Shown here in pieces: positions 9,886 to 56,264 of a DNA stretch of 64,000 bases. Where the stretch lies: contig OX344749.2 of assembly GCA_947034885.2 (NCBI GenBank), positions 27,357,501-27,421,500 of the forward strand, in the 5' to 3' direction. The stretch's first letter is position 1, and each line of letters begins with the position of its first letter. Below the pieces are notes generated by a model. The model was not told the DNA's origin. It did not search any database and worked only from the letters and a program-made list of their open reading frames with translations. This DNA is from Thuidium tamariscinum (lineage: Eukaryota; Streptophyta; Bryopsida; Hypnales; Thuidiaceae). The position numbers and the translations under genes are program-made.

Positions 9886-10229
9886 GATTTGAGGGCATTA
9901 GAAGACAGTGAGTTCTTTTGAGTTTCCTAAACTATAGGAATCTGCCACATCAATAGTCTAACATGGTTAAGAGACTACCACGCTAAAAAATAGTAAATTT
10001 TTTAATTAATTAATTAATTCTAAATTATTCATAAAATATTTTATTTTTTAATTTAAAAAAATAGTATTAGAATTCTTAACACTTTTTGGAAATTCTAAAA
10101 ACAAGATTACATTTCAAAAACTTGAAAGTTGAGCCATTATGGATTGATTTATTGTTTTTGAACAATACAAGGAACAAGCAAGGGAATGGCCCTGAAATGG
10201 CCTCTCTTGCCCTCAAATCTTCCCTAATG
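9886..10229. mobile_element. MITE family B, copy 1 (344 bp)
   Basis: The left end reads CATTAGAGGAGATTTGAGGG and the right end CCCTCAAATCTTCCCTAATG, an imperfect terminal inverted repeat of about 20 bp. The interior shares AGAGACTACCA, GAGCCATTAT and GATTTATTGTTTT with the copy at 44159-44502, and by my coordinates both are 344 bp. No open frame lies inside, so it is non-autonomous. Confidence 0.85.
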
Positions 10230-10519
10230 CATATTTAGGAATTGGATGCTCCTTAATTAACTTCATTGTAAATTTCAAAATATGCATTTTTGGTATTTGA
10301 TTTAACTAAATGAAGCATGAAATTTTTATACCTAATCCATTTTTAGATATGGAAAAGAAATCCAAAAATTCAATGAATTACTGCAATTCATTGCTCTACA
10401 TATTATAGGCCAAATTAAAAATATATGTATATTTATTTTAGTTTCTTTAGTAATTTTTAAAATTTTCTAATTCAATTTGGAAATTTTCTTCATTGATTGA
10501 TGTTCCAATTTCTAAAGGG

Positions 10520-10732
10520 AATGCTAGGATGTGAGTGTAGAATTTATGAGCCTATTAGCCTAGGAATTTATACTATAGACACCTTCTATTATAATTGATG
10601 TCTATGTTATAAATATCCATCTTCTGGCCTCTTTCTATAATATAATATACCTTCATTATAGGTACATATATTATAAACACCTTCAACTAGGTTCAAGGCT
10701 TGTAGCCTTATACACATGCTAGTATTGTTGCC
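10520..10732. mobile_element. MITE family D, copy 1
   Basis: The left end AATGCTAGGATGTGAG and the right end CACATGCTAGTATTG are inverted versions of one another. The interior is rich in TATAATATAG / CTATATTATA words and in AAACACCTTC. Related elements lie at 42860, 44503 and 46183. Confidence 0.7.
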
Positions 10733-11915
10733 AATTCTAACCTTCCATCATTTTTGATAAAAAATTCTAATAAGACTACCGTCTAAAATATATTCTTATT
10801 TTTATTGACAGAAATTAATTTGTAAATTATACTTGAAATTTGATCCTTACACCTAAAATTATAAGTAAATGAGTATTTGATTAAAAAAAAATCTTTTATA
10901 TATTCACAAATTACAACATAAATCTTTTGCCAATCAAAATCATTAAGACTAAATTAAACATGGTAGTAGTAACTTGACTTTAATGTCATTTCCAAAGTTG
11001 TTTTGTGTGTAGAAAAACAAATAATTATCCATACATAAATATTGTAAGCTCCCTAATGTTGTTCTTGGTACAATAGGAAAGCCTTTTGCAAGGAGGGGTG
11101 CACAGACTTTGTTTCATAGAGTCTGGATATCACCTATGGTAGGAAGCTCATAAAGCATCCATCTAAAGACAAATACACCCTTGCAGAAGATAGTATGCAA
11201 GTTAATGGGGTTTGTTTGATTTCAGTGGATAGAGAAGTAAAGAGCAATTCTAATGCAAGTAGAATCAGAATTTTCTGAGCCATAATGAATAAACTACAAT
11301 TTAATGAAGTAAAAATGCATAGGTATCTATTATTGCTCATAGGTTGAAGAAATTCTCAGTTTCAACATGGCTTTGAATAGAGCAAGTAATTCCAAGAAGT
11401 AACCAAGGTAGAAGTGCACAGTGCACATAAAAATCTGAATGGTGTCTTCATGAAATCAAAATTGGAGTGGTCTTCCATTTCATTTGTTTAAAAAAACAAT
11501 CTAAAGTAGTCTCCATGTCAGATGGAAATTGTGCATGTGGAAGCACATCCTCTCAGCATGGAGCCACCAATATTATAGAAATCATTATTTTTCAGAAGGT
11601 TATTTTCACCAACAATGGAAATAAGAACCAGTCATTATATCACTAATAGTCACCTTGTCAAGAGCCAAAAACCAAGCACAGGAACCCACATCCTCCGACC
11701 ACACAAACATTGCTTCATTAAGAACTTCTACACGTTGAGTTTTTACCTTCCCTAGGGACAACTGCAAATGAGCAGTCGCTTTTTGAGCCTCCTACCATAT
11801 AGTGTGAAAGTTATTAAATTTTGAAGGTTTTATGAAATACCAAATTAGAAATTTACTTTTACTTTTAGTTTGGCTGTGGCACTCTAGTTATCTGAGATTT
11901 GCCCACTTTTTCTTC
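10733..11915. other. Intergenic, nothing recognised
   Basis: AT-rich, with moderate-complexity sequence at 11040-11800. The only open frames are shorter than 70 codons and have no protein-like composition. A decayed retroelement is possible but not demonstrable from what I can read. Confidence 0.35.
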
Positions 11916-11919
11916 CAGT

Positions 11920-12165
11920 GAACAAATCTTTTGATCCAGGCTTGAAGATTCCGTTCCAAACTCGAATGGAGTTTTTCTTGAAACTCCGCCAGCCAGCAAT
12001 TCCAACAATTTGCAACGAGTTGGGAGCTCAGCATTGCGTGGTGGATTTGATGTTACCTTCTTGGTCTGCCTCACGTATACGAACGAGGTGCAGGTTACTT
12101 CTTGGCCTTAAGTTAATCTTACTCTGTTTTGTTTTTTGAGGAGCAAATTTGGGTGTAAGTTGGTT
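11920..12165 (+). repeat. Leader/promoter segment, copy 1 (matches 17255-17545)
   Basis: This segment upstream of the RING gene shares ordered words with a segment just downstream of that gene: CAGCAATT(C/T)CAACAATTT, GTGGTGGATTTGATGTT, ACGAACGAGGTGCAG, ACTCTGTTTTG and AAATTTGGGTGTA. The order and spacing are kept, so the two are paralogous. It is probably the promoter or 5' untranslated region of the gene that starts at 13470. Confidence 0.7.
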
Positions 12166-13469: not shown

Positions 13470-16400
13470 ATGTCTGTGGAACCTGGATCTCTTGCAACAC
13501 CAGAGAGTGCTACGGGTCCTCGTGAAAAGGAGCAAGGATCCGATTCCAAAACAGAGGGTATCCCGGAGTGGAGTGTAAACGTACAAACCTACGATTTGTT
13601 GAAAGAGGGGCGTTGCGCATACAATGCCGAAGAGCAGTCGCTTGTGTGGCCGCCTATGTTGCTGATCTGCTCCTCGAACGATGCGCCCGACACGGACTTA
13701 GAGTACGATGTTGAGTGGTTGAGAGGCACGCTGGTAACAGAGGGAGTGCAGGCAAACAGCGTGGCAGAAACGAAACATGTCTGTTGTGAAGGGATCCGAA
13801 GCTACCATCTATTTGTGTTGCCCCCAAGTGGCCTAGCATTTGCGACTGCAAAAGCGATTGACTCTACGCATGGATTTAACTTTGATATCTTCTATCCAAG
13901 CTTGAAGGATATATTCGATATTAAAAATGGTCGCGTCCCTGAATTTTCCCGTCGTGTTGTCGAGGGCTTGAAATACCATGGGATGCCCAGACAAGCTTGG
14001 ATGAACCTTGGTGTGGACCTTGTTCGTGATGATGGCATCTGTGTTGGACGGGGAGTTTGTCAGAAACACGAAGCCACGGATAGTGTGGAGGAGAAACCCC
14101 TTGGTGAATTCCATGTGGGCGTACGAGTTTTGGAAGTGCTGGACGACTTGCTTTCTTCTCATTGGAAGGGCTCTTTGCGTCGCTGGAGAACGACCCATGT
14201 TTTGCACAACGGTGTATCGTTGTTTGAGTGCTTGCGACAACATGTGGAGGACGAATCTGAAGGTGGTTTTTGTGAGGATGGGTCAGATTCTGCAGGTATT
14301 GCAGGGGTGTTGAAAGATCAGTGCATATCAAGTGTGTTTCCTTGGATCAGCATTTCCAAGGTCAGTACAAGTAGTGATGGATGTGGGTTTAAGGTACTGA
14401 CTCCAAGTTTTTTCCTGTTTCTTTGTTCAGTGTGCAATTTTGGTCTAGTTTGATCTGCAGCCCGCACTCCACAAATGATCCTCGTTAGATTGGCAATGTT
14501 CTTGTGATTAAAATCTTCATGTTCAGTGCACAGGAAATCAACATATAGGATAGTATTGAATTTCGTACGATTATGTTCATATAACTTCATGCTTGTATTC
14601 CAAAGTGCGTCTCTTATGCTAAATTGTGAGCCTTTGGTCCTTTGACGGGGATGAATGTTCCGACTGCTCATTTTTTATCCTCCGCATTTCATTCTTGTGC
14701 AGGATTTGAATGAGTTCAACCATCTTTCATCGAAATATGCCACGACTTGTAGCACTGTGATACAAGACATTGAGAAGAATACTCTCAAAAGTGACAATGA
14801 AGGACCAATTCTGCATGATGGAGAGTCGTTTGCATCGAAGGTATGACATTGTCTTTGATAGTCTTGATTCAGAAAGTAACAAAATGGGAGAAACCTGTTT
14901 TTATACTTTGTTGTATATCCGCAACGGTTTCAATCTCTTTCCACATCTAGAGAACCTTCAGCAATTTGAGGTAAATATTACCCGTGTACTTGGTCATGTA
15001 TTCATTTGTTCCGCAGCTTGACATTGATGAATCTCTGAGGAGGGACGAAGTGAAGAAAATAGCAAAGGATACTTCTCAGAAAAGGTTGTGGATGAAGCAC
15101 TTGGGAACCATCAACAGTTCTCACTTGGCGAGAGATGTTGTAAAGCGATTGACGGTCTTATAAAAGCTCACCGCTTCTGCCAAGAGTAGCATTTTAATCT
15201 CGTCAATGTAAGTGGAAAGTTCAGTTCAGTTCACATACCGATATTTTGCATTTTGATGGTGGTGTCATGAAAGTTCTTACCTTTTGTGGTTCTTTCCTGC
15301 ACTGAACAAGAATCACATGGTTATATTGTGTTATCCACAGAGAATGAAATTTTTTTTTCTTTGTCCATTTTTTGAGCAGGATCAAAGAGGCAAAAAAAAT
15401 GGAAATTGACCTTTTGAAGTCTATTGGGGAAAGAGCCAAGCATGAAAATGAACGCAAAATGGAAATGGTTGGCTTTGATAAGGAGATGGAGAGCTTCATT
15501 TTACGGAGAAGGAGAGAACAACACAAGGAGCTGCTCCAGGTTTTTCCTTGAGTGTGGATTCTTCTCCAGCTACGTTTTAATGTGATAAATTTAAGCTTTA
15601 ATACACTACTACTTCCACTCATGTTTTTTGGAAGCTGCCCAATGCCACACTCATGGAACTGACGTTCTAACTTTTGAGTTTATGCAGGAACTCGTGAATC
15701 TGAATGCTAGGCATTTTTCTGCAATGGATGGTCTTGTTCGAAGTAAGTTCACATTTCTGAACAATATCGGAAGGATTACGGAGGAGACGGAAAGCGTGCA
15801 GCTCTGGCTCACCCATCACACTGCTAAAGCAACAGACAAGGTAATCCTTGACCAATCCATTTTTTGATATTCGAATTATACTCTCCTCCCATTCTCGTGA
15901 GATTCGCAAATTGAATGTTTCCTGTCTCCAAACTCTACAACATGGAATCAATGTTAATTTGATATTAAATTAGTCAATGTTTGTTTCGTGTCACATCAAC
16001 ATCACTCAACTTATCAGCTTTGACTGCAGCAATAAGTCAATTATAGTAAAATGATGTTGTTTGTAGATTTGTACGAACGTGACATTTATGTAACAATAAT
16101 GACAATAACTAACATTGGCTCAAGATTGTTTACCTTGCCCAACTTAATGTGCAATAGATAGGCATTAGTCTAATGCCTAGTAATATTTGAGATGACCAAT
16201 CCAGGAGCATAAAAAGTGGAAGGAAAAAGTTGCAAAGACTCGCATGGAGGAGAAGAAAAAGTGGAAGAAACAAGCTGCAAAGACTCGCACGGAGGAGCAG
16301 AAAAAGTGGGAGGAACAGGCTGCAAAGGCTCGCACGGAGGAGCAGAAAAAGTGGGAGGAACAGGCTGCGAAGGCTCGCACAGAGGAGCAGAAAAAGTGGG

Positions 16401-16831
16401 AGGAACAGGCTGCAAAGGCTCGCACGGAGGAGCAGAAAAAGTGGGAGGAACAAGTTGCAAAGGCTCGCATGGAGGAGCAGAAAAAGTGGGAGGAGCAATT
16501 AGCAAAGGCTCGAACGGAGGAGCAGAAAAAACGCGAGGAAATATCAGCCAAGGTGATGACTGAGTTGGCAGCTGCTAGGCAAGAGCTGGCAGACCAGGAG
16601 GAAGCCATGCCCAAGTGTGCAATTTGCTTCGAGGGTTTGGAGGGAACAATGGCCAAATGTGGTGAAAAACGCAGCCGAAGCGATATCGTGCAGAGAAAGA
16701 GGGCTTGTTTTACTCCGTGCATGCACTCAGGCATGTGTTTGGAATGTGCCGTGACGGCTTGGGAGAGGTTTCAAAGATGTCCAGTGTGCAGCACTCCCTG
16801 CTCCTCGAAACCGCAACCCATCTTCATGTGA
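13470..16831 (+). CDS. Coiled-coil RING finger protein, N-terminal domain possibly XS-like
   Basis: A six-exon model keeps frame at every junction: 13470-14393, 14703-14840, 15017-15084, 15380-15539, 15688-15840 and 16205-16831, giving 689 aa. Residues 1-308 form a globular region with a WPPM motif followed by a hydrophobic strand, which recalls the opening of plant XS domains (SGS3/FDM proteins); that match is tentative. Exons 3-5 are charged and helical. Exon 6 begins with a coiled coil of 15-residue repeats (KWEEQAAKARTEEQK). The C-terminus holds a RING-like zinc finger: CAIC, a long loop, then CMHSGMC, LEC, and CPVC near the end. A RING of this kind points to E3 ubiquitin ligase activity (family knowledge). 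The donor of exon 3 (GTTGTG) is weak. The exact start is the first ATG in frame. Confidence 0.8.
16214..16533 (+). repeat. 45 bp coding minisatellite, about 7 units
   Basis: Within exon 6 the 45 bp unit encoding KWEEQAAKARTEEQK is repeated. The outer units are diverged (KWKEKVAKTRMEEKK and KREEISAKVMTE) and the central ones nearly identical in both DNA and protein, as expected from recent unequal exchange. The repeat length is a multiple of three, so copy changes keep frame. The 15-residue period is compatible with a long charged helix. Confidence 0.9.
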
Positions 16832-27439: not shown

Positions 27440-28386
27440 TTAGCCCCTAAATGCTCAAAACTGCGTTTTTTGGCAACATAGCAATTTTGGGCAGCTCATT
27501 ACAAATGGAGTTCTTATTTTTTTTATTTGAAATGTTCACACAACCTATATCCGAGGAGTAGCTTCAAGGCCCAACAATTTTCATAACTTTTGACACCATG
27601 GATAAAAAGTTATTGCATGATATGTGATTTCTCTTACTCAGCTGGCAGCCTGGGCAGCTGAAAAAATTTCTTCAAAAATCACTTTTTTTAAATTTGGAAT
27701 TTGAAATTCGATCTTTAGATTTTTTTTCTACTTGGAAAGCTTTTAATTATTCCATTTTGATTTATGAAATGAAAGTTATGGGAGTCTTAGTTTGAAGGTA
27801 GTTTGTGAGAAGTTATGGAATCTCTATTCCAAAATAAACTTTGAAGTCCATTATTGTATTCAATTTTTAATATTTTTGAAAAAGAATAAAAACATTAGGT
27901 GAAGATTGTCTATTACAACATTACAACCACTGAGATTGGAAATTTTCAATTTCAAAAATTAATTATTATTACTTTAGTATTTTGAATCATTTTCTACCTC
28001 TTTCTACTTACTAATTGTTTTCTACATATTGTACAACTCCAAATGATTTGAAATTTCTTAGGCATGTAGCTAACTTGACTAAAAGAATGAATCCAAAGAG
28101 TAACAACCATTTTGGACTTTTTTTCATACAAAAGTGAGCTACTAAAGTGCAGCTGCCCCACTTATCCCAGGGACAAAAAATGCATTTTTGACAATTCAAA
28201 CACTATTATCTTGCAATCTGCATGGTGGAAATTTCTGAAATTTTTTCCACATATTCTCAAAATAGTTTACTATAAGATCCACACATTTGTCTTAAAATGT
28301 TTTTTAAAAAGATTTTGGTCTTGTACTAGAAGTGGCAGTTTTGAAGTGTTTTTGGCAAAACATAGTCAAATACATTTAGGGGTTAG
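27440..28386. mobile_element. MITE family C, copy 1 (about 947 bp)
   Basis: The ends read TTAGCCCCTAAATG and CATTTAGGGGTTAG, an inverted repeat of 13-14 bp with one mismatch. The interior matches 56614-57557 over its whole length, including TTTTTTGGCAACATAG, CAATTTTGGGCAGCTCA, AAAAAGTTATTGCATGATAT and GCAGCCTGGGCAG. No transposase frame is present, so it is non-autonomous. Confidence 0.85.
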
Positions 28387-29810
28387 TACAGTTCTTCAAT
28401 TCTAGTTAAAAGAGGAATTTTGACCAAATTATTATGGACATAGGTTGCCCTACAACTTCATGTACCCCCTAAAACAATGTCTCATTCAAAAGGTCAGCAA
28501 ATTATTTCTTGTAATCTCTTCTTGACCCATGAAATTTGTATAATCAATGAATATGGATTTTTCATTCATTGATCACAGATTTCATCCATTTTAGGACAAG
28601 CATTTCTATTGAGCAATCTCCTTGTCGTTAGAAAAAATAAGGATTCTTCATCAAGGTTCACCCATTGCTCTAATCTAATTTTTTTAATTCAAAAATATTG
28701 CCCTTAGTGATTGCCCTATAGATTAAACATTGTGAAGACCAAATATAATAAATAAATCATAGATTCAAAGAGAGATTGGAAGAAAATCTAAACCATCAAT
28801 ATCTTTAAAATGAAATTGAAATAGACTAATTCCAATAGTGAGATTATTCTAGCAAGCATATTGTGCAATTTAACCTTATGAAAACACTAGTTCTTAAAAA
28901 ATTGTAGAAATTGAGTTCAAAAACAAATCCAATCCAATATTTTTTTCCAAAAAGTTTTTGTGACTGCTCAAAAAATAAGGAGCTCTATAACTTTCACATC
29001 TTTAATCTAAATAGAATGAATCAAAGTTTTTTGTGAAGACAAAAATATACTCTATAGGGAAAAAAATTTATCTATTTCAAGTCTTTGTTAATTTTTTTTG
29101 TTTCATGGTTTCCCTTGCTTTGAGTTCATTGTGGCATAGTTTTTGCTCCTATAGACTAATTGAAATCAAAATTATTCTCTAAAAGCTAATATATTTTCAA
29201 TTTTAAGAATTTTTTTCAAAAATCACCTCAAAAATTGAAGTTATACAAACCTACTTGAAATCCAATTTGTCCCTAGAGGAGACAATGGGACTTTAACCCT
29301 TGAAGGATGCATTAGTAGTTGAGAAAACCATGCATTTTGATATTGTGTGACATCATCTACTTTGAATAAGCCAAATATACTCATTGGAAGTCAAAATACT
29401 GTGGAACATCTCCCTCGTCCACACTTAATACCCATAATGAATAGTTGCAATTAGTCTATCCTACAAGGGAAGATTTTTTGTCATTCATCGGATACAAAAT
29501 GTCCACTATAGCGTTTAAAGGTTAACAAGGGATTAACTATTCTAGTAATTACTCTTATAAAAAGGCATGAATAATTTTGCATTGTTGGAAATGTTGTTTT
29601 GGAGCAAATGCTAATGTCAAGTTTGTGTACAAACAACAATACCTCATTCAAACCCCTTTCTACTTCCTCTAAAGATAGTTATTCCTCTCATGATTAGGCC
29701 AATGAGCTATTAATCATAAATGCTATTCAAATGGTTTAGACTAATCTATTTATTGACCTAATCATCTAAAATTGCATCAACACTGCACATTTCTTTTTGT
29801 TGATTTTTTG
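28387..29810. other. AT-rich intergenic, nothing recognised
   Basis: Low-complexity AT-rich DNA with no credible gene, tRNA or repeat boundary that I can support. Confidence 0.4.
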
Positions 29811-30118
29811 TCAATCCAATCATACAAGGGACTTACTTTGTTGTTCTTATAAAAATACTGAATCTTAACTAATGACAATTTATTATTTAAACTAGTTTCC
29901 AACTAATTATAACTTCCATTGTTCATTTGTGACTTTGCTCCTTGCTTCTTTATATTTTGTGAGCCCAATCACATATACGGTAGGAATTTACTTTGATGTT
30001 GTCATAAAGATACTAAATTTAAACTAATGATAGTTTATTAGTTAAACTAGTGTGCAACTAATTATAACTTTCATAGTTCATTTGTGACTTGGCTCCATGC
30101 TTCTTCATATTTTGACAC
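29811..30118. repeat. Tandem duplication of about 153 bp
   Basis: Two adjacent units share CCAATCA, TTACTTTG, TAAACTAGT, CAACTAATTATAACTT and GTTCATTTGTGACTT in the same order, at a period of about 153 bases. Confidence 0.75.
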
Positions 30119-31858: not shown

Positions 31859-32672
31859 ATGGGATTATACCTTGGAAAGTTCTTGTCAAGTGAATGGTGG
31901 GGAAAGAAGAACTATAAGATACTCATGCTGGGTCTTGACTCCGCAGGTATGTCACGAGCTTCTCTGATCTCTCTTACATCGACCTCTAATTCCTCATATT
32001 TTTTGCGTCTGCTTGCAGATTTCTGGAAGCGTCATACTCGGATTCATAAGGATCAAATTCTAAGAGTCTGAGCGTGGGTTTTTAATTGTCATTAAGCATG
32101 TTCTTTGGTGCTAGTCTACAGGGAAAACAACAATTCTCTACCAATTACAACTAAAACAGCAAGTAACCACCATACCAACTATAGGCTTCAATGTTGAGAC
32201 AATCCAGTTTGGCAATTTCAACTTCACCGTGTGGGATCTGGGTGCTTGGACGAATAATGCGATATGGAACTATTATCTTCATGACACAGTGGTAAGCCTT
32301 CCTCTGCAAGCGACCATAGATGCATGCGACGGGCTAGAAAAGTATCATGGGTACTAATGTGACCATCTGGATTATATTCTTCAGGGTTTGATATTTGTGG
32401 TCGACTTGAATGATAAGGAGAGGATTCAAGAAGCTCGAGACAAGCTCCACAGGATTCTGAATGATGATAAGACGTTATCAAGCTTGTTGGTGCTGGCAAA
32501 CAAGCAAGAGTTGCCAGGGGCTATGTCCATCCCTGACGTAACTGCAGAACTTGGTCTCGACAAATTGCAGCATCGGAAATACTTTGTGCAGGGCTGTTGT
32601 GCAAAGACAGGAGAAGGACTGTTTGAAGGGTTGGAATGGCTTGCATCTACAGTATCACTGAAGAAATTTTAG
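31859..32672 (+). CDS. ARF-family small GTPase with degenerate switch II
   Basis: Three exons, 31859-31946, 32122-32291 and 32385-32672, join in phase to 181 aa, the usual length of ARF/ARL proteins. The start MGLYLGKFL keeps the N-myristoylation glycine. The P-loop GLDSAGKTT (25-33) and switch [13 protein letters not shown] (45-56) are intact. The G3 box, normally WDVGGQDKIRPLW, reads [12 protein letters not shown] (67-78): the second glycine is Ala and the catalytic Gln is Trp at 72. The G4 box NKQD reads NKQE (125-128). The C-terminal part, including [16 protein letters not shown], is normal. ARF proteins recruit coats and effectors to membranes (family knowledge). This one probably cannot hydrolyse GTP normally (inference). 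Everything else is in frame, with no stop, so it seems to be an expressed divergent paralogue rather than a dead copy. Confidence 0.9.
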
Positions 32673-33466: not shown

Positions 33467-36400
33467 TTACAGATGCTCCAGAAGTCCAGTGGCTCCACGA
33501 GGAGCGTCAACGTCATTGAACTCTGGGTTGGGGTGCATGATCCTCTCCTCGCTATTCCAGTGTCGCTTGCGCTCATTGATGAACCAGTTGTTGATTTGCT
33601 TCAGCGTCAAGTTGCAGAGTCGCTGCAGGTGTGTTTTTTCCATCTCCTGCACCAACAATCATTTGTTTAAAATCGTATCAATGTAAGCACCTGTAGATTT
33701 AACCAAGTGAAGAGGTTGGAACTGCATTCCTTAATAATGTCATTAACACGGTAAACAGCTGCATTCAGGTGAATGTGGTAGGTCAACTGGGCAGAAATTT
33801 AAAACAACTCGTTTATCGCAGCTTCGGGCCACTTTAGATTTCAGAGGTCAAAGAAACAAACTTGAACTAACCAGAATTTATCATACACCTTGATTTGTAA
33901 ATAAAAATTCATTTTTTATCTGTGATAGTTTTGTTTGATGTTGTTTTCACATTAGTCTAAGTGACAGAAATGAGGATCATGAAGAAGTGATGCTTACTTG
34001 GCTCCTATTTACGGTATGTCTGGCATGCTGAAAACGTTTTTCAGATGGATTGGACACTGATTACCTCAAATGTGTCCTAAGCTACAGGTCATAAAATAAT
34101 GCATTTCTAGTCCTTCTTCAGCATGTTATCTATCTCAAGTGTGATTGCTCATGCATGATGTTGCTTCAAATTCTCAAGCTTGTTATCTAGAGCTTTGTTA
34201 TCACCAGCCTGAAGTCCGCGGCCCTTACACTCTCGGTTGCTGATAAGGTTTTAAAATGAATTGGACTCTAATTACCTCAAATGTGTCCTAATCTGTCATA
34301 AAATAATGCAATAATTTTAGCCTTTCTTCGGCATGTTATGTAACTCAAGCGTGCCTTTGCACATGCACGATGTTGCTTCCAATTATTAAGCTTGTTATCT
34401 AGGGTTTCTTATCTGCAGGCTAAAGTCTGTGGCCCTCACACTCCCGGTTACAAGGCTTGGAGCTCCACAAGACAACAAGCTCAAACTGAGAGAGTGAAAA
34501 GGGGAAAGCAGTGAAGAGGAGCTAGACAGTACCGAAGGATAAGGCCAGTGGGAGTGGAGGTTAAACCACTCCTTCAAGATGCGTCGAGCTGCATCGGGGA
34601 GCTTCCCTTTCTTGCGCACCCGATTGAACTCCGCCTTGAGAGATCCGATGTGTCGACCGTATTTCCGCCTGAGCGCTTTCTTGAGCTCTTCTTCGGAGGC
34701 GTCGGGATCCACCACGATGCTTTCGTCGATGTCTGCGGGACATGGCACCAAGGTGCTCTCATCCTCCCCTGGCGGGATCATATTAGTATTCTCCGAGTTG
34801 TCGTCGCTGTCTTGGGCTTCGTCTCGGGGATCAATGTCAAAGCCGAAGTTGTCCTCCTCCTCAGGTTTGGCTGCAGACACGTATCAAATTCAGTACCACT
34901 ACTCTGTCAGTGCGTAATTTGATTTTTGGACAGACTCCTTCAATTGACCCGAAATTGTGACATGAAGTTGCACTGAGCTCTAGGACCGGTGTGGATTTAC
35001 GATTCAGTCCACTGGACCTGTAAAGGAAGTGCAGTCTGTTGTGGTCAAGTACTTTATAAATTGGCATGATTCAGGCGGCGGCCTAAATTGTGACATTCAA
35101 GTGCACAAAGCTGAAAAAAACAAGCTAAGACGGCTCCTGATAAGGTAAATCTTGTTATATTGGTGCAATTCAGAGTTCCAGAATTGCGACACTGATAAAA
35201 TCAATCTTGTTATATCGATGCAATTCACAGTGCAAGAATTGTGACACTCAGAAAACAAAGCTCTAAAAACTAAGACTACTATAGATTTAGGTTTCCAGCC
35301 GCCAGCCTTGCAAAGTACCAACGTCGTGAATCTGACATTCGATGGTAGTTCCAGATGGACTTCTAGAAAAGTGCCAACTTCATGAATCTCCGTCAATTCA
35401 AGTTGACGAATTCGGCGATATTAATTTTGCTTAATTGTGGTTTTACTATAGTTACCTTAAATTTCATATGCAATTGAAGAGTACATAAGGATGAGGATAC
35501 TAAAGTTGTTAAGAATCTGATCCCGACTCAAATACTAAACTTCATTTATTCGATATATTGGGCAGATGTTCGCAGATATTCAGGACACTTGAAACCTAAA
35601 CCTACACCTGCCCTGAATTTTAGAACTTGAGTGTTACAATTTTGGTGCTCTGAATTGTGCCAATAAAAAAATTGACGGCACTATCTCATCAATTCAAATA
35701 TTAACTTGGTTGAACTTATTAGTATAAGCATGACTTGGGCAAATATGACTTGGATGAATGTCTATGACACATGATTTCTTTAAAGAAATGAAATTGCCTT
35801 CAGCCCTTCTGAAGAATGGTCTACAATCCTCCTTTCTGAAAATACATAAGAAATCCATGAATATTAAAAAAAAGAAAAAAGAAATTCCTCTCAAATGAGT
35901 CTGGCTCTTACACTTAAATGTATAGATCTCTCCTTAGCTCAATGAAAGCACACTCTTACGAATATTGATTAATTAGAACGCATGGTTTCTCCCATAGACT
36001 TACTTTCAACGTAGTGGCCACAGAGACCTTCCAGCTCCTTGGTGGTTTTGTCCAAGAACTGCGTGAACTGGTTGAAGGGCTCCTCCAAATTCTCCCGAAA
36101 ACTCGTTAGCAGAACCGCGTATGATTTCTGTTGCAAATCCCACATGAAATCAAATCACATCACTAATTAGTGTGCATCGATAATTATGTAATTATCTACC
36201 AACATTCATTGCAAAGTTGGCTTCAGAAATCAGGTACCAAGCAGGTGACGAATTACCATGAAGTGGTCAAGCTCAGGATCCTGGACAAGCTTGGAAGTAT
36301 CACGACCTTCGTAAGAGCGTTGAAACTTCTTGGTGACGTCGTCCAGTTTGGCATGAAGCTCCCTTGGTGCACCAATCTGCATTGAAATCATTGATCCCTA

Positions 36401-37760
36401 AGTTCTCAAACTAAAGATACTAAGGTGACTTTTGGAGATTTATGATAAATAATTAATTGAAACTGTTTTTATCATTGATTTGAACATGATTCATGTTGCA
36501 TTTGTTCTTCTTTCCATACTACCTGATTTTATTTGAAGCTTCGTCAATGAACAGTAATTCGATGAAACGCGGTTTTCACAACATACTGTACACCATCCTC
36601 CCAATGGATGCTTGAGCGATTAATTAGCGCTTAGGGGCTAATTGTCCAGTTGGCAACTAAGACTAGAATTAGCAACTCAAAGATGATTAATATTCGCAGT
36701 TTCAGTTGACAGAAGTTCGACAGGAGACGATCAAACATTGTACAATTTAAGGCGAGTTTTCTGACCTTGAGGATCGCGATGTGGGCAAGTGCCATCTCGG
36801 GATACAGCGGATGATCACAAATGGCCGTTCTGAGTTCGTCGGGTATTTCGTTGCCACACCCTTTCAGAGCTTCTTCTTCTCCATCGCCTTCGCTTAGTGT
36901 CGACATCCCCGACGGTCCATGTTCCTGAACTCAAACTTTCACCAGTACGTAAGGAAGGCTGATTTCGTACTCGTTTTGCAGGGGCTTAGTACAACACTGC
37001 AGTGTATTTGCAACTATTTGAGATTGACACAGTTTTGCAACAGTTTCAGCTTAGAAATGCATCGGTTCCGTGTCCAACACTCTTACAACTCTTTCACAAT
37101 TTATTAGCGAAGTACGAAACCGCTGCAAAACCATTGCAAACTAATTGTTGATGTATTCGGCAACTGCTACTTCCTGTTGTATTGATCGAACGTTAGCGAA
37201 ATGCAATGGAACGTACCCATATTCCGAAACCTGTGAACGCTACTTAACTATCTTCTTAACACTCTTTTTGTGTGAAACTGAGCTCAAGAACAGAGTATTC
37301 TTCATAGAGGTTCGTGAATCACCCAGTTTCAGGCAATCGAAAATAGAGAATGAGAGTCTAAGCTTAAACGAAAGGTTCTGGTTTCTGCCTGAAAAGGAGA
37401 TGTAGTTGCCATTAAAAGCTCTGACGAGTTGAAGTCAAACTCTTGGCGAAGGAGTGGCACAGCTTCAGCATGAGAACTCAAGTTCAGCGAGGATTCGTTG
37501 TTGAAATTATTGCTTGCCGACGCCAGAAGAAGAACTCCGACAGGCGACGGTATAAGAGCTTCTTCCACGCTTGCGTCGATGTGAACGAAGTTCGCGTACG
37601 CAGCTGCAGTGAGAACTTCATGAGTCGAGCTTAGCGACGAGCTTGAAGAGTCGGTGTCGAGGTATGGCTGCTTTTCAAAGAGGTGAATGGGATGGGACGG
37701 AGACGCCATCTCCTCCATTGCCACACCTTCAACTTGCTTGCCTCGTTGCGTTTCCTCCAT
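33467..37760 (-). CDS. KNOX homeodomain transcription factor, class I-like
   Basis: Five exons are secure and in phase: 36766-36924, 36257-36376, 36004-36127, 34533-34870 and 33467-33646, giving 306 codons. In order they carry KNOX1 ([20 protein letters not shown]...[14 protein letters not shown]), KNOX2 (DPELDHFM...[14 protein letters not shown]), an acidic linker, the ELK domain ([20 protein letters not shown]) and a TALE homeodomain with the three-residue WPYPS loop and helix 3 [13 protein letters not shown]. The ELK and homeodomain resemble class I KNOX. KNOX proteins act in the nucleus with BELL partners and control the diploid programme and meristems in land plants (family knowledge). 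The 5' exon is less sure: a Ser-rich frame starting MEETQRGK at 37760 fits in phase only if it ends at 37389 with a GC donor (CAG|GCAGAA), giving 430 aa. Otherwise translation may start at the ATG at 36906. Confidence 0.9.
34043..34460 (-). repeat. Tandem duplication of 211 bp in the last KNOX intron
   Basis: Two adjacent units share TTGGAC, ATTACCTCAAATGTGTCCTA, CATAAAATAATGCA, GGCATGTTAT, CAAGCTTGTTATCTAG and CTGAAGTC or CTAAAGTC, in order, at a period of 211 bases. It lies close to the donor of the intron that splits the homeodomain. Confidence 0.8.
36975..37195. repeat. Repeat R, copy in the first KNOX intron
   Basis: It shares TAGTACAACA, CAGTG(C/T)ATTTGCA, TTGAGATTG, TTTTGCAACAG, TTGGTTCCGTG or TCGGTTCCGTG, GCGAAACCGCT-like words and CTTCCTGTTGTA with 37905-38160 and 52020-52250. 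The order is the same but divergence is larger than between the other two copies. It lies between the probable first exon and the KNOX1 exon. Confidence 0.7.
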
Positions 37761-37889
37761 GTCTGCAGCCTATTGACACAACTCCAGAAGAGAAACTTCT
37801 TCAGCATTGAACGACTTCCAAAGTATATCAAATCCTCCTCTACTACAGGAGGGTGAGATTGCAATAGTTTTTGCTACGGCTTGCAATGA

Positions 37890-40800
37890 CGCCAGGGCAG
37901 AAATCTATCAACAAGTTTGCGATGGACTAGTACAACATTGTGCAGTGCATTTGCACATACTTGAGATTGCAATATGTTTTGCAACAGCTTAGCTAGCCTG
38001 AAAAGCTGTGCATTGGTTCCGTGCACAGGACTTTTGCTACAAGTTTGCGGTATTTTAACAATAGACCGTACATGAGTGCGAAACCGCTAAGAAGCTATTG
38101 CAAGCAAAATACTGGATGTTGTGTTGCGACCTCGGCTTCCTGTTGTAGCGCTCGTACACAAGACGAGCTCGTTCCCGATCCAACTGATTTCAACCCAACA
38201 ATGCAAGTTTGCATGCAGCGGTGCCTGGAATGAACAAAACAGTTAAGAGCGGTGCGTGTGGCGACATACCTTGGAACGGGGATTCTCTGTCAGCCCTCCG
38301 ACAGTCCCACAAAACTCAGTGGTCCCAATAAGATGTTTGTTTTCACGATGCCCTTCGAGTGAGAACACTTCAACCTCTTTGTTACAGACTGCGAAGGCTT
38401 TGGGCAGCTTGCACAACTTGGAATCTAAGCTCTAAACTCTCTGGTTTCAAAACTAGTGTAACTCACTGGAGGTAGCTAGCGATTGATTCTTCAGCTTCTC
38501 CCTTCTCCCTCTCAGTTTCAGTCGCAGGGAATTCGAACCGAAACGGACTACTTATTCATGTGCGTGGTGATGAAGAGGAGTCCAATGAAATTGCAAGAAA
38601 TTGAATTGGGTTATTAAGTGTTGTAGCTGAGCTGGAAATCAATTCAAAGCATTTGAAGAAGAACTTCAGTTCAGTCTTGCATGGAAAGGAATGTAAGTGT
38701 AAGTACTCCTTATAATTACATTCCTTGAATCATGGCCGTAAGGAGTAATTAGTATGAACGACCTGGATCGGAATTGAACGACGTCACTACACGAAAGAAC
38801 GGGGAAGCTCGGGAGCATTGGGAGGAGATCGGAACTTGGAGCTGGCAATGTGGGAGCTGGGCACGTCACAAACTCTAAAGGAAGGATTTTTCATGGCCAA
38901 AATACCAGTGAAATCAGTCGGCAGATATTCCTCACAAATAAGAATGTTGAATGTCTTGAGAGAGTATACATGATTATGGTTGTTTTGAAAGCCAAGGTAC
39001 CAAAATGGTCTAATGATCCAAGTGTATAGAAATGGTCCAAAAAGATGAAAAATAATTCATTTCAATGAACATTTCAAACCCTCCTCCCCCAAAAAATAAA
39101 TTGGAGTGTTGAAATTATGTTGGCAAGGTGGACTTGAATATGTGAGTAATTCATTTCACCAAGTTTTACTTCCTCTATATTGAAACCACTATAGGAAAAC
39201 CTATGGTTAACCTAGCTTGCTTTCAAGACTAGTAAGAATGAAGAATTTGTGAACCAAGTGCCCTATATGGGTAGCACATCCTTACCTAGTCTAAATATGC
39301 AATATCCAATTGTATGTATTAAAATTAAAAAAAAGGGGTCACGTAGAGAGATATTTTCAACTTAGTTGTATATTCTTCACCTATTGAGCCACTTTTATGA
39401 TCCACTCAATGATGATTTTTCTAAATTTATTTGATGGAATTCCACAATTTTGGCACTTTTCAAGCACATGGCCTAAAGCCTAAATATATTTTGATAATAG
39501 TTTTGATAATAGATTGTAGAGCATTTTGTTTTGTACTTTCAAAATTAATTCCTTGTGCTAAAAATTTGCTAATTTAATTTTTAGTATAAAAAAATAAATT
39601 GAAGAACAAATTGGTATAACACTTTGCAAAACTTATTATTGCATTTCATTTTGTTAGGCATCCAAATTCCCTACACACTTTAGTTTGTAACACATATTTT
39701 TACAAAACACTTATGTAAATAAAAAACCCTAGAAAACAAGATAACAAGTGACTTAATATTATGTTTCTTTTCTATCCCATCTAAATCATAGTAGCCTCCA
39801 TTTCAGTTAATGTCATATGCAATTGGTAAGATTAATCATGGTTTAATTCAAATGTTTTAAAGGACAACAGTTATTTCTATCATTCCATCCACCATGATCA
39901 TAAGTTGTTCTTCTCGTACAATGATGATTCTAGAGTACACAAGAATTTGCCAGGCACAATGAGTCAGTGAAGTGACCATTTTTGATCATTTCCACCGCAT
40001 GGGAGTTATGAGGAACCACTTATTAAAATGTCCACCTCTCTACAATTTTATTTCAGCTATTGGAATCCTATTTAGAGTTCATCCACACAATATCCTTGAA
40101 AGCAAGTGACGACATATGCCATTGTTTGATTTTTGAAAAAATTACATATATTATCAAGTTGTTTTTTTAACTCCTAAAGCTTTGAAAGCTCCCATGGAAA
40201 TTCTGAAAGCTTGAGTACTTTCATATAAAGTTAATCATGATTGCAATCATCATAAAAAGTGAGATTCTACCAAAGATGCACATTTCTATAAACTTTAAAA
40301 AATATATAATTTTCTTTTTCAATCAAGTGCTTGTGCTACTAGAAAGGGCAAGCAATCAAGTAATACATGAAGATGACTTCATAAACAATACTCCGCATCA
40401 TATTTTTTAGATTAAAATCTATTCTAAATTTTATAGATTCTATAAGATTTTTTCTACAATTTTGTGTATTCTAATTGATAAATATGGAAATATGAAAAGG
40501 ATGTAATTTCACAAGTTGTACAAAAGAAAATAATTGAGTCTACCAACTCAAATTCTCTTCATAGATTTGAAATTATTCAAGTATCCACAACTTTTTCTAG
40601 AAAGTGTTTCCAAGGCCTTTGAAATAGAAATGACCTACTAATTTGGAAGATAATGTAAATATGATATAAGAATCAAAATCTTTTGAGTTAACATTTAAAA
40701 CTCTATGCATTATATAAATAAATTAGAAACTATAAAGATGATCAACAATTGACTAATATATCTGTATCATCATTTAAGATCTATTTTGAAGTACTATGCA

Positions 40801-41720
40801 ATGGAAGTTTATGAATTCACAACTATCATTTTTAATATTTTCATTCTTTTGAGTGCATACAATCTTGATTCATTTGATGGAAAAAGAAAGAATTGCATGG
40901 TGAATACATTGTCACTTTTTCTTGAAGAAGCCCCCTAATGTAAAAATTTATATAGTATAAGCATACAATACTATTTTATAAATTTAGATTATTGAAAAAA
41001 AACAATTATTTCTAAAAATAGCATAAAGAACATAGATTTGTCTATTGGTATTATTTTTTTTTATCCCTTAATGACTACAACAACATTCAAATTTTAAGAA
41101 ATGGATAAACACAAATATATCTCAAGCATACAAAAATAAACTTTTTCATCCATCAATTTCTATAGATACTTGTGTTAGTTCCTTAATACTTGTACATTAC
41201 AAGTTTCAAATACTTTGTTTTGCAAATACTCTACTTATAATTCAAAAAACACTAGTACATTTGGCTTCAAAACATAACATTTGTTGTTAAAAAAAGACCC
41301 TTTGAAAATCACTTGAATTTATACAAGAATAAAAATAACAATCTTCAAAAATCACCTTGATTAGGATTTAACTTCTTGAGAATACTATAAACATTCTTGT
41401 GAAGTTCACAAATATTCAATCTACAGTGATTTGAGAAGGGATTTCCAAATTTTGGTTTTGAATCTAATTGAAATATATTGGTTAGTATAGTTTTTAATTT
41501 AACCAAATGAATATGATCTATGAATCATTTTCTACAAATATAATTTGAGAGTTTCCATTAAATTATTTCTCCAAGTTGCATTTTGTAATACATCTTCACA
41601 AATTAAGAAAATAATCTAGAGTATCTTTATATCCTCAAGGGATTAATGTAAGGTAGTTGCAAAACCTCATATTAGAAATCTATTACATCTAATTAGTGAC
41701 ATATAAGGCATATATAGGAT
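37890..41720 (+). repeat. Segmental duplication, copy 1 (upstream of KNOX)
   Basis: The block matches 51985-58950 in the same orientation. Near-identity holds for the first 1.2 kb (for example CAAGCAAAATACTGGATGTT and GAGCTCGTTCCCGATCCA in both), then the match continues more diverged through AT-rich DNA to about 41720. The last clear shared words are AAGGTAGTTGCAAAACCTCA. The proximal 500 bp has higher GC, and on the minus strand it contains an exon-like stretch ending in a CCAAG|GTATGTC donor near 38270. This could be a distal 5' untranslated exon of the KNOX gene. No transposon termini bound the block. Confidence 0.85.
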
Positions 41721-42859
41721 TTTGGTCCACTCTCTTATATGTTCCAAAATATCAAATGCTCTATATTGTGACATAAAGCCTTGTACTTCTATTGGCAATT
41801 ATATGGTTGTACTACCATGCTAGAGCCTTGTATATATGATTGAATTTCTTACATATTCTAAGGATCTCATTCTTTTAAGTGCATACATTTCTATGAAAAA
41901 AATTATAACCAATACAGACCTTGAAACAAAAGGCTCTCAAATTATTTAAACAATTTATTATGGCTTATAAAATAGAGGATGCTAGGATATTATCTAGCAA
42001 TAATGGTACAATAATTTAAAAAAAAACAATAGTATCTCTTTCTTGACCCCTATAGCTTTTTACTATATTTTCACCAAAAATGCTTTAAAAATTGACTTTT
42101 CTAATACAAGTACCAAATTTGGGAAGAAAAAAAAGATTTTTGGACCCACACTTGTAAATATAGGACCTTATAGTATGCTAGTTTGAAAAGATGTGGGAAG
42201 AATTTCAAAATTTTCTACAATGAAGATGGTAAGATATTAGCATTTGAAGTGACAAAAATCCTTTTGAAGGCCCTTCAAAAAACTTGGCATCTATATTTCA
42301 CAAGGTTACATTTGTAAGAAAAAATATTCAAAATAGTGGTTCTTATGTGGATTCATTCTTTAAGGGGAAATCACTTAGTATTTCCTAAACAAATCACATG
42401 TGTCAAAGTGAATTTTTGACCTATATTGCTAAAAATTCCTAACTAAAATAACATTTGAAATGATTTCTTGAATAGGTTGAAAAATGAACTAAAATGGCTT
42501 ATTTCTCAATTCAAATATTTGTAGAGAAATCAATGCATTTAAATGACCAAGGCATCAATATTCAAGAAAAAAAACTTTCAATAGAAGTTTATTTTTAACA
42601 TTTTTTAATCATTTTTTAGAAAAAAATTCTTATATAAAATAGGGATGTGAAAGTTATTTTTAGCTATGCAATGTACTTTTTTTACTTCAAAAATTTGTAA
42701 CTTATTATAATTAACACAAAATATCAATAATTCAAAACATAAACTTCCAAAGAAGGAATTTTTTTTTATGTATTTTTAATTTTTCTTTTTAATTTTAGGA
42801 TATAAAATATGGGTCCAAAATCTTAATATAAGTAGTCTCCAATGGACATTCTAAATCAC
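41721..42859. other. AT-rich intergenic, nothing recognised
   Basis: Low-complexity AT-rich DNA. No gene, tandem period or terminal inverted repeat that I can support. Confidence 0.4.
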
Positions 42860-43015
42860 AGTTGCTAATATGTGAGCATAGAAAATGTGAGCCTATGAGC
42901 TTAGAATTCTATACACCTATAATATAGGTATCTATATTATAAACACCTCAATGATTATAGTGTATCTATATTCTAAACATCTATATTATAGATGTTTATG
43001 TTATAAATACCTTCA
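42860..43015. mobile_element. MITE family D, copy 2 (truncated)
   Basis: The left end GTTGCTAATATGTGAGCATA is followed by TGTGAGCCTATGAGC and the family's CTATATTATA / AAACACCTC words. The right terminal repeat is not found. Confidence 0.6.
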
Positions 43016-43089
43016 AAAGAAGTATTTTGGACAAGTGATGGAGGAATCATGCTACAAACACCAATTGGCACCACCCCAGCAATACCTTG

Positions 43090-43690
43090 GCACTACTCCT
43101 AATTTTTTTTCCAAGGTGTCTCTTGGTACCAACAAGGGGATCTAGAAGTAATAGTCATGCACATTTTATTTTATTTTTTATTTTTTTTCAAAACCCCAAA
43201 CCCAACAAAGAGTCTTTTAGTACCAATCAAGAAGAGTTTGGAGAGGTGTTGGAGTCCAAAAAATTTAAATTACATAAATTAATATTATCGACTTTAGAAA
43301 GTGCCAAACCCTAACGGTCCAAAGAACTTCTTGGGATTGAGAGGATATTTTTGAATTTATCAAGTTTTTAAGAACTATTTTTTAAAGAGTTTTGAGGGTC
43401 GCAAACTTCAATATCTCTAAGGGACTTCTCAATACTAAGAGGGGGCTTAGATGATTTTATAGAGTTGCAAAATAAATAAATAAATAATTGAAAAATAAAG
43501 TTTTCAAGGTCCCAAACCCTTGGTTACTCAAAGGGAACTTTTGGTATTGAGTGGGGTTCCAAGAGTGATTTTACAAAGTCACAAAAAAAATTGAAAAAAA
43601 TTAAAAATAAACTGAATTTGTTTTTTAAATGATTTTTGAAAGTTTGAAATTCCAAAAAGGTCTTTTGGTACTACAAAATATTTCTAGGAT
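43090..43690. repeat. Degenerate tandem repeat around a TTTTGGTAC(T/C) core
   Basis: Related blocks of about 110-130 bp recur with the words CCAAACCC or CAAACTTC, CAAAG(A/G)(A/G)AC, TTGGGATTGAG or TTGGTATTGAG, and GATTTT(A)CA, separated by A/T runs. A weakly related inverted stretch is visible near 61790-61990. Confidence 0.5.
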
Positions 43691-43789
43691 GATGGAGTTA
43701 TATATTGAAAATAATGTAAATTTTTAAGTCTTTAACTAGTGTAATAAACTTATTATTTAAAAAAGAGCCTAAAAATGCACCTTGTAAAC

Positions 43790-44155
43790 TTCAAAAATAC
43801 ATAGGATTGCATGTGCAAAAGTATTGATTCTCAAAGTCCCAAGGCACATAGATTTTTTAGGCAACTCACAACAAATGAAATTTGTTTTCTTTGAAATTTC
43901 TACACAACATATGCTCAACAATATCATAATTTTGATTACATGATTAAAATTTTATTGTATCATATATGGTTTCTTTTCTAATCTAGACATCCTAGGTAGA
44001 TTAGAAAAAAATCACTTTTTGAAAAAATAAACATTTAAAATTGGTTTTCTTGATTTATATTTACGTAGGAAGCTTTGAATCATTCCATTTTGATTAATGA
44101 CATGAAAGTTATGAAGAGTTTTAGTTTGCAATCACTTATAAAATCAAGGTTTTTA
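43790..44155. mobile_element. Decayed partial copy of MITE family C
   Basis: Words such as TTTAGGCAACTCACAACAAA, TTTGAAATTTCTACACAACA, ATCATTCCATTTTGATTAAT and GAAAGTTATG follow the order seen in 27440-28386, but both ends are missing and it stops where family B copy 2 begins. Confidence 0.6.
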
Positions 44156-53985: not shown

Positions 53986-56264
53986 TACTTTTATGATCCA
54001 CTCAATGATGAAAATTGAAGCTCTAGGCCTAGAGCCTAAATAGATTTTTATAATAGATTTTAAAGCTTTTTTCATTGTGATTTCAGAATTAATTCTTGGT
54101 GTACACAAAATTTACTAATTTAGTTTTTAGTATAATGAAATAAATTGAAGAACAAAGTGGCATAATACTTTGCAAAATTCATTGTTACATTTCATTTGTT
54201 AGGCATCCAAATTCCCTACACTCTTTAGTTTACACATATTTTTACAAAACAATTATGTAAACAAGAAATCTAGAAAAGAAGATCACAAATCATTTAATAT
54301 TATGTTTCTTTCCTATCTCATCTTAATCATAGTAGCCTCCATTTCAATTAATATCATAAGGAATCAGTATGATTAATCATGGTATCAAATGTTTCAAAAG
54401 ATAACAATTATTCCTATCACTCCACCATGATCATGAGTAAGTTGTTCATCTTATTGTACAATAATGATTCTAGTGTACACAAGAGGTTGCCAATCATAGA
54501 TATTAGAGTGATTGTTTGTAGTCATTTACACGGTAGCATGGGAGTGATGAAAAAACACTCATTAAATGTCTCCATTGCTATAATTTATTTTAGCTATTGG
54601 AATCCTATTTTAAAAGTTCATCCAAAGTATATCCAAGCAAGTGACATGTGTCATTGTTTAATTTTTTTAAACATTGAATACGTTATTCACAAGTTGAAGC
54701 TCCTATGGAACTTTCTTAAAACTCAAGTAGTTCATATAAAAATCAATCTTAATTGTATAAAAGTGAAATTCTTACCAAAGATGTACATTTTTAAGAACTT
54801 TTCAAAAATATAACATTTTTTCAACGAGGTGCATGTGCTATTTTAAAAAAAAGAAAGGAGTGAAGCAACATGTGAAGTTGACTTCATAAATAATATCATA
54901 TTTGTTAGAATAAATATATATAAATCATAGTTAGGGTGAGAGTACCAACATCATGATCACAATTCTTTAAAATAAATAAATAAACCAAATCATAGTAGTT
55001 TTTAGCATAGTTGTGAGTTATTTGTGCAATTCCAAACTTCTCAAGTATTCAAGGCATCAAATTACTAATGTTATCACAAGCTTTATAATAGTGTTGTGTA
55101 AGCATTATATAAATCCTCAACCGTCCCTTTGAAGCCTAGATATATTTAAAGAAGCTACCATTTTACATTGACTTTTGTATAAAATGAATCTTGTTGGAAA
55201 TAGAAATCTTAAGGAAAAAATATGATCATATTATTATATGATATGGAGGCAAATAGTGAAGTATTTACAAACTAAAAGACTTTGTCTAACAATGCAAATC
55301 TTACATATGAAATAGTATTTTCAATACATAATCTTATTAAAAAAATATCATTGACTTTCTAATTGTGCTAATTAATTTAGAATTAGATGAAGATCTTCAA
55401 CAATCACTAGTGCTAACAAAAAAAATGAAATTCAACTACAATATTATAATTTTATTTTCTTGTAGGCTTTCAAAAAAATTACAATAAATTCAAGATCATT
55501 TGTAGAAGGCTTACTACAATGGAGTAATTAAATTCATCACATTTTTTTTGCACAAGATACTTATATTTACATCAAAATTCAAAAAAAGAGGAATTTTTCT
55601 TATATTGGTGTCATATATATGGTAGTAGGAAAATAAATAAAGAAGATGTTCTTGGAAAAATTCAAAGAACTCAATCCTAAAATGCTGGAAGAATGAAAGA
55701 ATGTAAGAACAAATACAAATTTTAGATTTTATATCAAAAAGTATATTGAAGATTCATAGATTCAATGAAACTTTTTCTATAATTTTGTTTATTCTTGATG
55801 ATAAATATAGAAAGAGAAAAAGGATTTTATTTCATAAGTTGTACACAAGAAAATAATTCAATCCATCTAAATATGCCAAATTTTCCTCATACATTTAGAA
55901 TTACTCATAAATTCTCAATTTTTTCCTAAAAAGTGGTTGCAAAGGCTTTGAAATAATCATGGCCTACAAATTTGGTAGAAATATAAATATGATAGAAGAA
56001 TCTATTTTTACTAATTTTTACTAAAATCATTTGAATAAGCACATAAAATTCTACTCATTATATTAACAAATTAGATTCTATAAAGATGATCAACAATTGA
56101 CAAATATTTGTATATTAATTTCAAATCTATTTTGAAACATTATTTAATGGAATTGTATGAATACACAATTAAAGCATCACTTTAATATTTTCATTCTTTT
56201 GAGTGTATCTAATGTTAAAATTTACATATGTATGAAGAGACCGATTAAGAGAGATTTGAAGACT

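Follow-up and report, generated by a model that had tools for sequence, protein, structure and literature searches.

An ARF-family gene with a remodeled switch II: a candidate plant pseudo-GTPase

The window that we analyzed is a stretch of 64,000 nucleotides (C1:27357501-27421500) in a genome of 363 Mb and 19 contigs. On its plus strand lies an ARF gene of three exons (31859-31946, 32122-32291, and 32385-32672) with two GT-AG introns (31947-32121 and 32292-32384), which together give a 546-nt open frame for 181 amino acids without stop or frameshift. Exon 1 runs from Met1 to the first base of the Gly30 codon and holds Gly2 of MGLYLG, the N-terminal helix, and the GLDSAG that opens the P-loop. 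Exon 2 contains the remaining P-loop (GKTT), switch I, the interswitch, and a remodeled switch II, and it ends at HDTV; exon 3 begins at GLIFVVD and continues to the stop codon TAG. An earlier note on this DNA had placed the gene at 32122-32672, an interval that covers exons 2 and 3 but omits exon 1, so that the start codon, the helix at the N terminus, and the beginning of the P-loop fall outside it. A hidden exon with a canonical switch II was ruled out: intron 2 is 93 nt long, and reading resumes after it in register with L015, a paralogue described below.

The product is clearly a member of the ARF family. It matches the Pfam Arf profile (PF00025) over residues 12-175 with an E value of 3e-56 and 190.1 bits, against a cut-off of 22.3. 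Its P-loop reads GLDxAGKTT and includes the Asp26 typical of ARFs, and switch I (32175-32201) is intact, with Thr48 and Phe51 kept (ARF1 numbering, used throughout). The solved structure closest to it is an ARF1 chain, PDB 3aq4 (E 2.5e-61), which we take to be ARF1 from Arabidopsis. The N-myristoylation consensus finds the context of Gly2 permissive, and Gly2 is hence a predicted myristoylation site, judged from sequence only. The N-terminal helix has one residue more than that of ARF1, and its hydrophobic moment (0.22, versus 0.27 to 0.82 in five other genes) is indecisive. The claim that the P-loop, switch I, Gly2, and the splice sites are intact agrees with both the gene model and the alignment.

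The G3/switch II segment (32232-32267, plus strand) stands where ARFs read WDVGGQDKIRPLW. In the alignment used, Gly70 is replaced by Ala and Gln71 by Trp, Arg75 is lost, and one codon is deleted, so that the six residues TNNAIW stand against the seven of DKIRPLW; Asp67, Gly69, and Trp78 are kept. This deletion makes the pairing of Gly70 with Ala and of Gln71 with Trp ambiguous, and the missing residue could even be Gly70; under every gap placement, however, switch II lacks Gly-Gln. Further along, Lys replaces Glu106 (32442-32444, plus strand), and the G4 motif (32499-32510, plus strand) reads NKQE for NKQD, a change of Asp129 to Glu; just before LLVLANKQE there is a second one-residue deletion relative to ARF1. 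The altered motifs thus lie where they had been noted. The total length, described earlier as intact, is so in the sum of 181 residues, but that sum conceals the two deletions and the extra helix residue.

We aligned the product with ARF and ARL genes of the same genome. Gly70, Gln71, Arg75, Glu106, and Asp129 are kept in all eight of these genes, and all five are changed here; kept in our product are the P-loop, Thr48, Gly2, and the effector triad Phe51/Trp66/Tyr81. We then counted changes at invariant columns, defined as identical in the other eight genes and present in at least six. Eight of 46 such columns are changed: L8F, Y58F, G70A, Q71W, R75N, E106K, D129E, and W153Y. The same test gave 2 to 3 changes in 41 to 46 columns for L010, L011, L012, L015, and L021, and 13 of 56 for the distant ARL5-type L009. 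The value for L023 (0 of 43) is zero by construction, its identical twin L022 having stayed in the reference, and is not a control. The excess in the ARF gene is more than chance. Two of the changes, Glu106 to Lys and Trp153 to Tyr, show that the C-terminal half, described earlier as intact, is not entirely so.

Five of the eight changed residues sense or bind nucleotide (G70A, Q71W, R75N, E106K, and D129E). As an enrichment this is not significant (5 of 20 functional columns versus 3 of 26 others; Fisher p 0.27), and the functional set was drawn up by us. The weight of the five changes lies in their membership in one circuit rather than in bare enrichment. In the GTP state of ARF proteins, a salt-bridge network links Asp26, Arg75, Arg99, Asp96, and Glu106, centered on Asp26 and Gly70; the NH of Gly70 senses the gamma-phosphate, Gln71 serves hydrolysis, and Glu106 is a salt-bridge partner (PMC3012027). 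Of this network our product keeps Asp26, Asp96, and Arg99, while Arg75 is lost, Glu106 is Lys, and Gly70 is Ala. Active ARF and ARL GTPases have the catalytic Gln71, in whose place Trp stands in the alignment used, and a Gln results from none of the gap placements. Pseudo-GTPases are defined by the loss of one or more G motifs with function retained (PMC12722892), and here both G3 and G4 are altered.

Across the genome the Arf profile gave at least 62 exon-level matches, and 32 stretches besides the window were taken for comparison. A scan for the G3 motif found DxGGQ within one exon in 17 of them, the Rab-type DTAGQ in eight, and DLGGG in one (L039); two (L025 and L033) are apparently split by an intron at G3, and four had no match. 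GAW occurred at G3 in none of the 28 stretches with a G3 match.

Which of these loci are the relatives of the ARF gene? By identity, its product is 55% identical to L010, 53% to L022 and L023, 52% to L015, 48% to L021, and 40 to 42% to L009, L011, and L012. Bootstrap values around it in the protein tree are low (38 to 52), and relationship is hence better judged from the introns. The intron after GLDxAG, which ends exon 1 in phase 1, is common to the ARF gene, L010, L012, and L015; among these three, the intron before GLIFVVD is shared with L015 alone. The start of L015, MGLLLGKLLSSISWG, resembles that of the ARF gene, and a start like MGxxxxKLLSSxxWG is found in L010 and L015. L011 is similar from exon 2 onward; its exon 1 was looked for and not found. 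L016 (C5:24.756 Mb; L016:2365-3107) is a dead ARF copy of the same intron type, which has lost its ATG and carries two in-frame stops and a frameshift. L015 (C10:4.66 Mb), L010, L012, L011, and L016 all differ from the ARF gene in keeping WDVGGQ. The protein branch of the ARF gene is 0.60, compared with 0.30 for L015.

The ARF gene does not belong to the plant class-I ARFs (the ARFA1 group), having neither their exon structure nor their near-identity to ARF1: the class-I intron after PTIG, present in L022 and L023, is absent, and the intron after GLDxAG stands instead. With class-I ARF1 (3aq4; L022 and L023) it shares the fold family, the length, the P-loop, switch I, Trp66, Asp67, Gly69, and Trp78, the effector triad, and the N-terminal Gly. 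Unlike class-I ARF1, it lacks Gly70, Gln71, Arg75, Glu106, and Asp129, and it has other introns and the extra residue in the N-terminal helix. L021, which we take to be a class-A ARF (ARFB1b/c type), has different introns, and tree support for grouping the ARF gene with it is weak.

The neighbors of the gene fit a land plant. A KNOX-type gene on the minus strand (33480-37780) converges on it, with its ELK domain over the cut-off and KNOX1 under; we read it as a class 2 homeobox gene. The other neighbors are RF3-like pieces (under the cut-off), a C2 domain, and a ubiquitin/RING protein. We searched for a duplication partner of the locus through the synteny of the KNOX and ubiquitin/RING neighbors and found none. 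A paralogue of the KNOX neighbor (68% in the piece that was compared) lies at C2:31.577 Mb; in the 50 kb around it no ARF match was convincing (the best tblastn hit had E 0.14), and no Arf-profile match on C2 was among the matches listed. The closest paralogue of the ubiquitin/RING neighbor, at C3:11.73 Mb (78%), is megabases from any ARF match listed. Searches for orthologues in a genome-contig and a viral-contig collection, both poor places for plant genes, gave no relative. Elsewhere in the window, an open frame at 16196-16831 (plus strand) encodes about seven near-identical K/E-rich repeats of 15 residues and then a RING-type finger that falls slightly short of the cut-off (Pfam zf-C3HC4_3, E 1.4e-5).

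Is the gene maintained by selection? Codon likelihood tests were run on eight genes, the ARF gene and seven others; L022 (the same protein as L023), the dead L016, and the other ARL- or Rab-type loci were set aside. The branch of the ARF gene is 8.2 changes per codon long, and several changes per codon separate it from its paralogues; the split is hence an old one, with saturation at synonymous sites. On this branch an omega of 0.02 to 0.08 was preferred to an omega of 1 under each of three topologies (2dlnL 13.4, 13.5, and 13.4), and profile likelihood placed the upper limit of omega between 0.2 and 0.3. These data favor purifying selection averaged over the branch, as judged within a single genome and with saturated dS. 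Neutral simulations (2,000 runs per setting) left 0.6 to 1.5% of genes stop-free after 0.3 changes per site and 9 to 15% after 0.1.

We also fitted a two-part model in which the nonapeptide LGAWTNNAI was treated apart from the rest. The nonapeptide took a neutral length of 2.6 to 4.6 changes per codon and the rest a length of about zero (2dlnL 22.6, 17.5, 19.8, and 21.4 under four gap placements), for a switch II segment that was picked after it had been seen. A sliding scan with fixed parameters over six of the eight branches (all except L009 and L011) placed the maximum of the ARF gene at switch II (20.5). The maxima of L010, L012, L015, and L021 were 6.5 to 14.5, and L023 peaked at 22.0, in its N-terminal helix, a region with an alignment gap. 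There is good support for local release, or a change of function, in switch II. The whole gene may also have passed through a terminal neutral phase, of up to about 0.2 to 0.4 changes per codon at the end of the branch.

Perhaps the protein is a naturally GTP-locked ARF, one that is loaded by a GEF, cannot hydrolyze GTP, and remains on membranes in its active form with coats held there, as the laboratory mutant Q71L does? Gln71 is indeed gone, and the protein retains the P-loop, Thr48, and the effector face. However, the residues that read the gamma-phosphate, Gly70, Arg75, and Glu106, are missing as well. Lys73 and Lys38, presumably GEF contacts, are changed too, though position 38 also varies in other genes. 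In Ras, the G60A mutant is mainly in the inactive-like state 1 and its GTPase is impaired, Gly60 being a contact of the gamma-phosphate (PMC4867591). Ras Gly60 would correspond to ARF Gly70, and an "always on" protein of the Q71L kind is hence not the simplest expectation; the comparison is with a laboratory mutant in which Gln61 is kept. In Arabidopsis, the Q71L forms of ARF1 and of a class-A ARF disturb development and traffic, but a class-B ARF-Q71L was without effect on root growth or germination (PMC6264874), so that a tolerated locked ARF is conceivable. We consider a GTP-locked ARF unlikely, and the suggestion that the protein is locked in one nucleotide state is weakened by the loss of the gamma-phosphate readers.

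Alternatively, the gene could have been silenced recently and be at an early stage of decay, with most of its divergence dating from the time when it still worked. The short terminal neutral phase allows this, a dead relative exists in L016, and the protein branch is twice that of L015. The exons are also poor in CpG (observed/expected 0.41, versus 0.63 to 0.96 in eight other genes and 0.76 in its own introns), which may reflect past methylation. However, a comparison with shuffled synonymous codons gives a shortfall of about 2 standard deviations (10 CpG versus 14.4, sd 2.2), no greater than in L009 or L010, which fall shorter still. The frame has no stop or frameshift. The dead L016 shows the opposite pattern, with stops in its frame and an unaltered WDVGGQ. 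Moreover, the remodeling of switch II requires at least 10 to 12 base changes (three gap placements) and an in-frame deletion of 3 bases within 27 to 30 nt. The Poisson chance of at least 10 changes in 27 nt at 0.07 to 0.13 changes per site, the neutral length that is allowed, is 3e-5 to 3e-3; hence the remodeling largely predates any silencing. A recent neutral phase is unlikely to have been the sole maker of the switch II changes. We conclude that simple decay is unlikely, and recent silencing, taken as a whole, quite unlikely. In the window, AT-rich islands at 40001-44000, 28001-30000, 10001-12000, and 54001-56000 (GC 0.26 to 0.31; CpG observed/expected 0.06 to 0.15) are probably methylated transposon remains between gene blocks; the exons of the ARF gene are less CpG-poor than the islands at 40-44 kb (0.06 to 0.08).

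The Sar GTPases are active switches. At the place of Gln71 they have a conserved His (PMC3012027), and the ARF gene might likewise encode a working GTPase, with catalysis by another residue or by a partner. We regard this as very unlikely: a Trp would not be expected to place the water molecule in the way that Gln or His does, and the product also lacks the sensor residues. An assembly or sequence error, which the use of a single assembly would allow and which the earlier note had named for switch II, is hardly credible, for it would have to produce the many independent base changes and the in-frame deletion and to strike four separate places (switch II and positions 106, 129, and 153) with the frame kept throughout.

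We therefore favor, with somewhat better than even confidence, a protein-coding ARF paralogue that is maintained by selection and works as a pseudo-GTPase. The earlier proposal of a conserved pseudo-GTPase rather than random decay gains from the branch-averaged purifying selection and the concentration of change in switch II, within the scope of one genome. Such a protein would probably be uncoupled from the GTP state rather than locked "on." It would probably attach to Golgi or post-Golgi membranes through a lipid on Gly2 and the N-terminal helix, and it would still present the effector face of Phe51, Trp66, and Tyr81 to its partners. Nucleotide binding may be kept but weak, given Asp129 to Glu; GTP hydrolysis by the ARF mechanism should not be possible, and the shape of the protein would probably no longer be coupled to the gamma-phosphate, so that it would not switch. 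With hydrolysis and coupling lost, it could serve ARF partners as a scaffold or decoy, or titrate them, and be regulated through its abundance or through partner binding. More tentatively, and with rather less than even confidence, we propose that a plant ARF proper, not an ARL, has been selected into a membrane scaffold or decoy independent of nucleotide state, with switch II rebuilt around Trp and the effector face kept: a natural "switchless" ARF.

There are precedents for parts of this proposal among ARLs. ARL15, an animal atypical GTPase, has Ala at the Gln place and a GTP affinity of about 20 uM, and it binds CNNM whether GTP is present or absent; with GDP the Kd is about 40% higher (PMC10348743). 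It resembles the ARF gene product in the replaced catalytic Gln and is a precedent for GTP-independent partner binding. However, it belongs to another subfamily and has Ala where our product has Trp, and the two are likened by described features. ARL10, ARL13A/B, and ARL16 also lack the switch II Gln (PMC12722892); ARL13B and the other Gln-less proteins are of ARL subfamilies, not ARF proper.

Pseudo- or atypical GTPases of the ARF family have been discussed for ARLs (PMC12722892, PMC10348743). Among the matches listed from the open-licence literature, we recognized no plant ARF pseudo-GTPase in titles and abstracts; a eukaryote-wide survey excluded divergent sequences whose motifs were disrupted (PMC8358228). 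If a selected plant ARF pseudo-GTPase is confirmed, it would be a natural test of separating ARF effector binding from the GTP cycle.

Several other ARF-family loci deserve mention. L012 (C10:4.15 Mb) and L011 (C5:1.59 Mb) form a second diverged ARF pair, 76% identical to each other, in which the stretch before switch I is altered. L036:2487-5758 (C3:46.279-46.282 Mb) holds class-I-like ARF fragments with stops within the profile matches; its switch II reads DVGC, maybe at an intron edge. L039, from position 2011 onward (C10:285.9 kb), which we take to be ARL13-like, reads YDLGGGKSIRGLW, with Gly at the place of the catalytic Gln and the double Gly kept (DLGGG). Finally, we observed two inverted pairs: two class-I ARFs about 20 kb apart at C4:19.701 and 19.720 Mb, and, at C1:34.589 and 34.634 Mb, two genes of the ARF family that lie about 45 kb from each other and agree in their G3 stretch.
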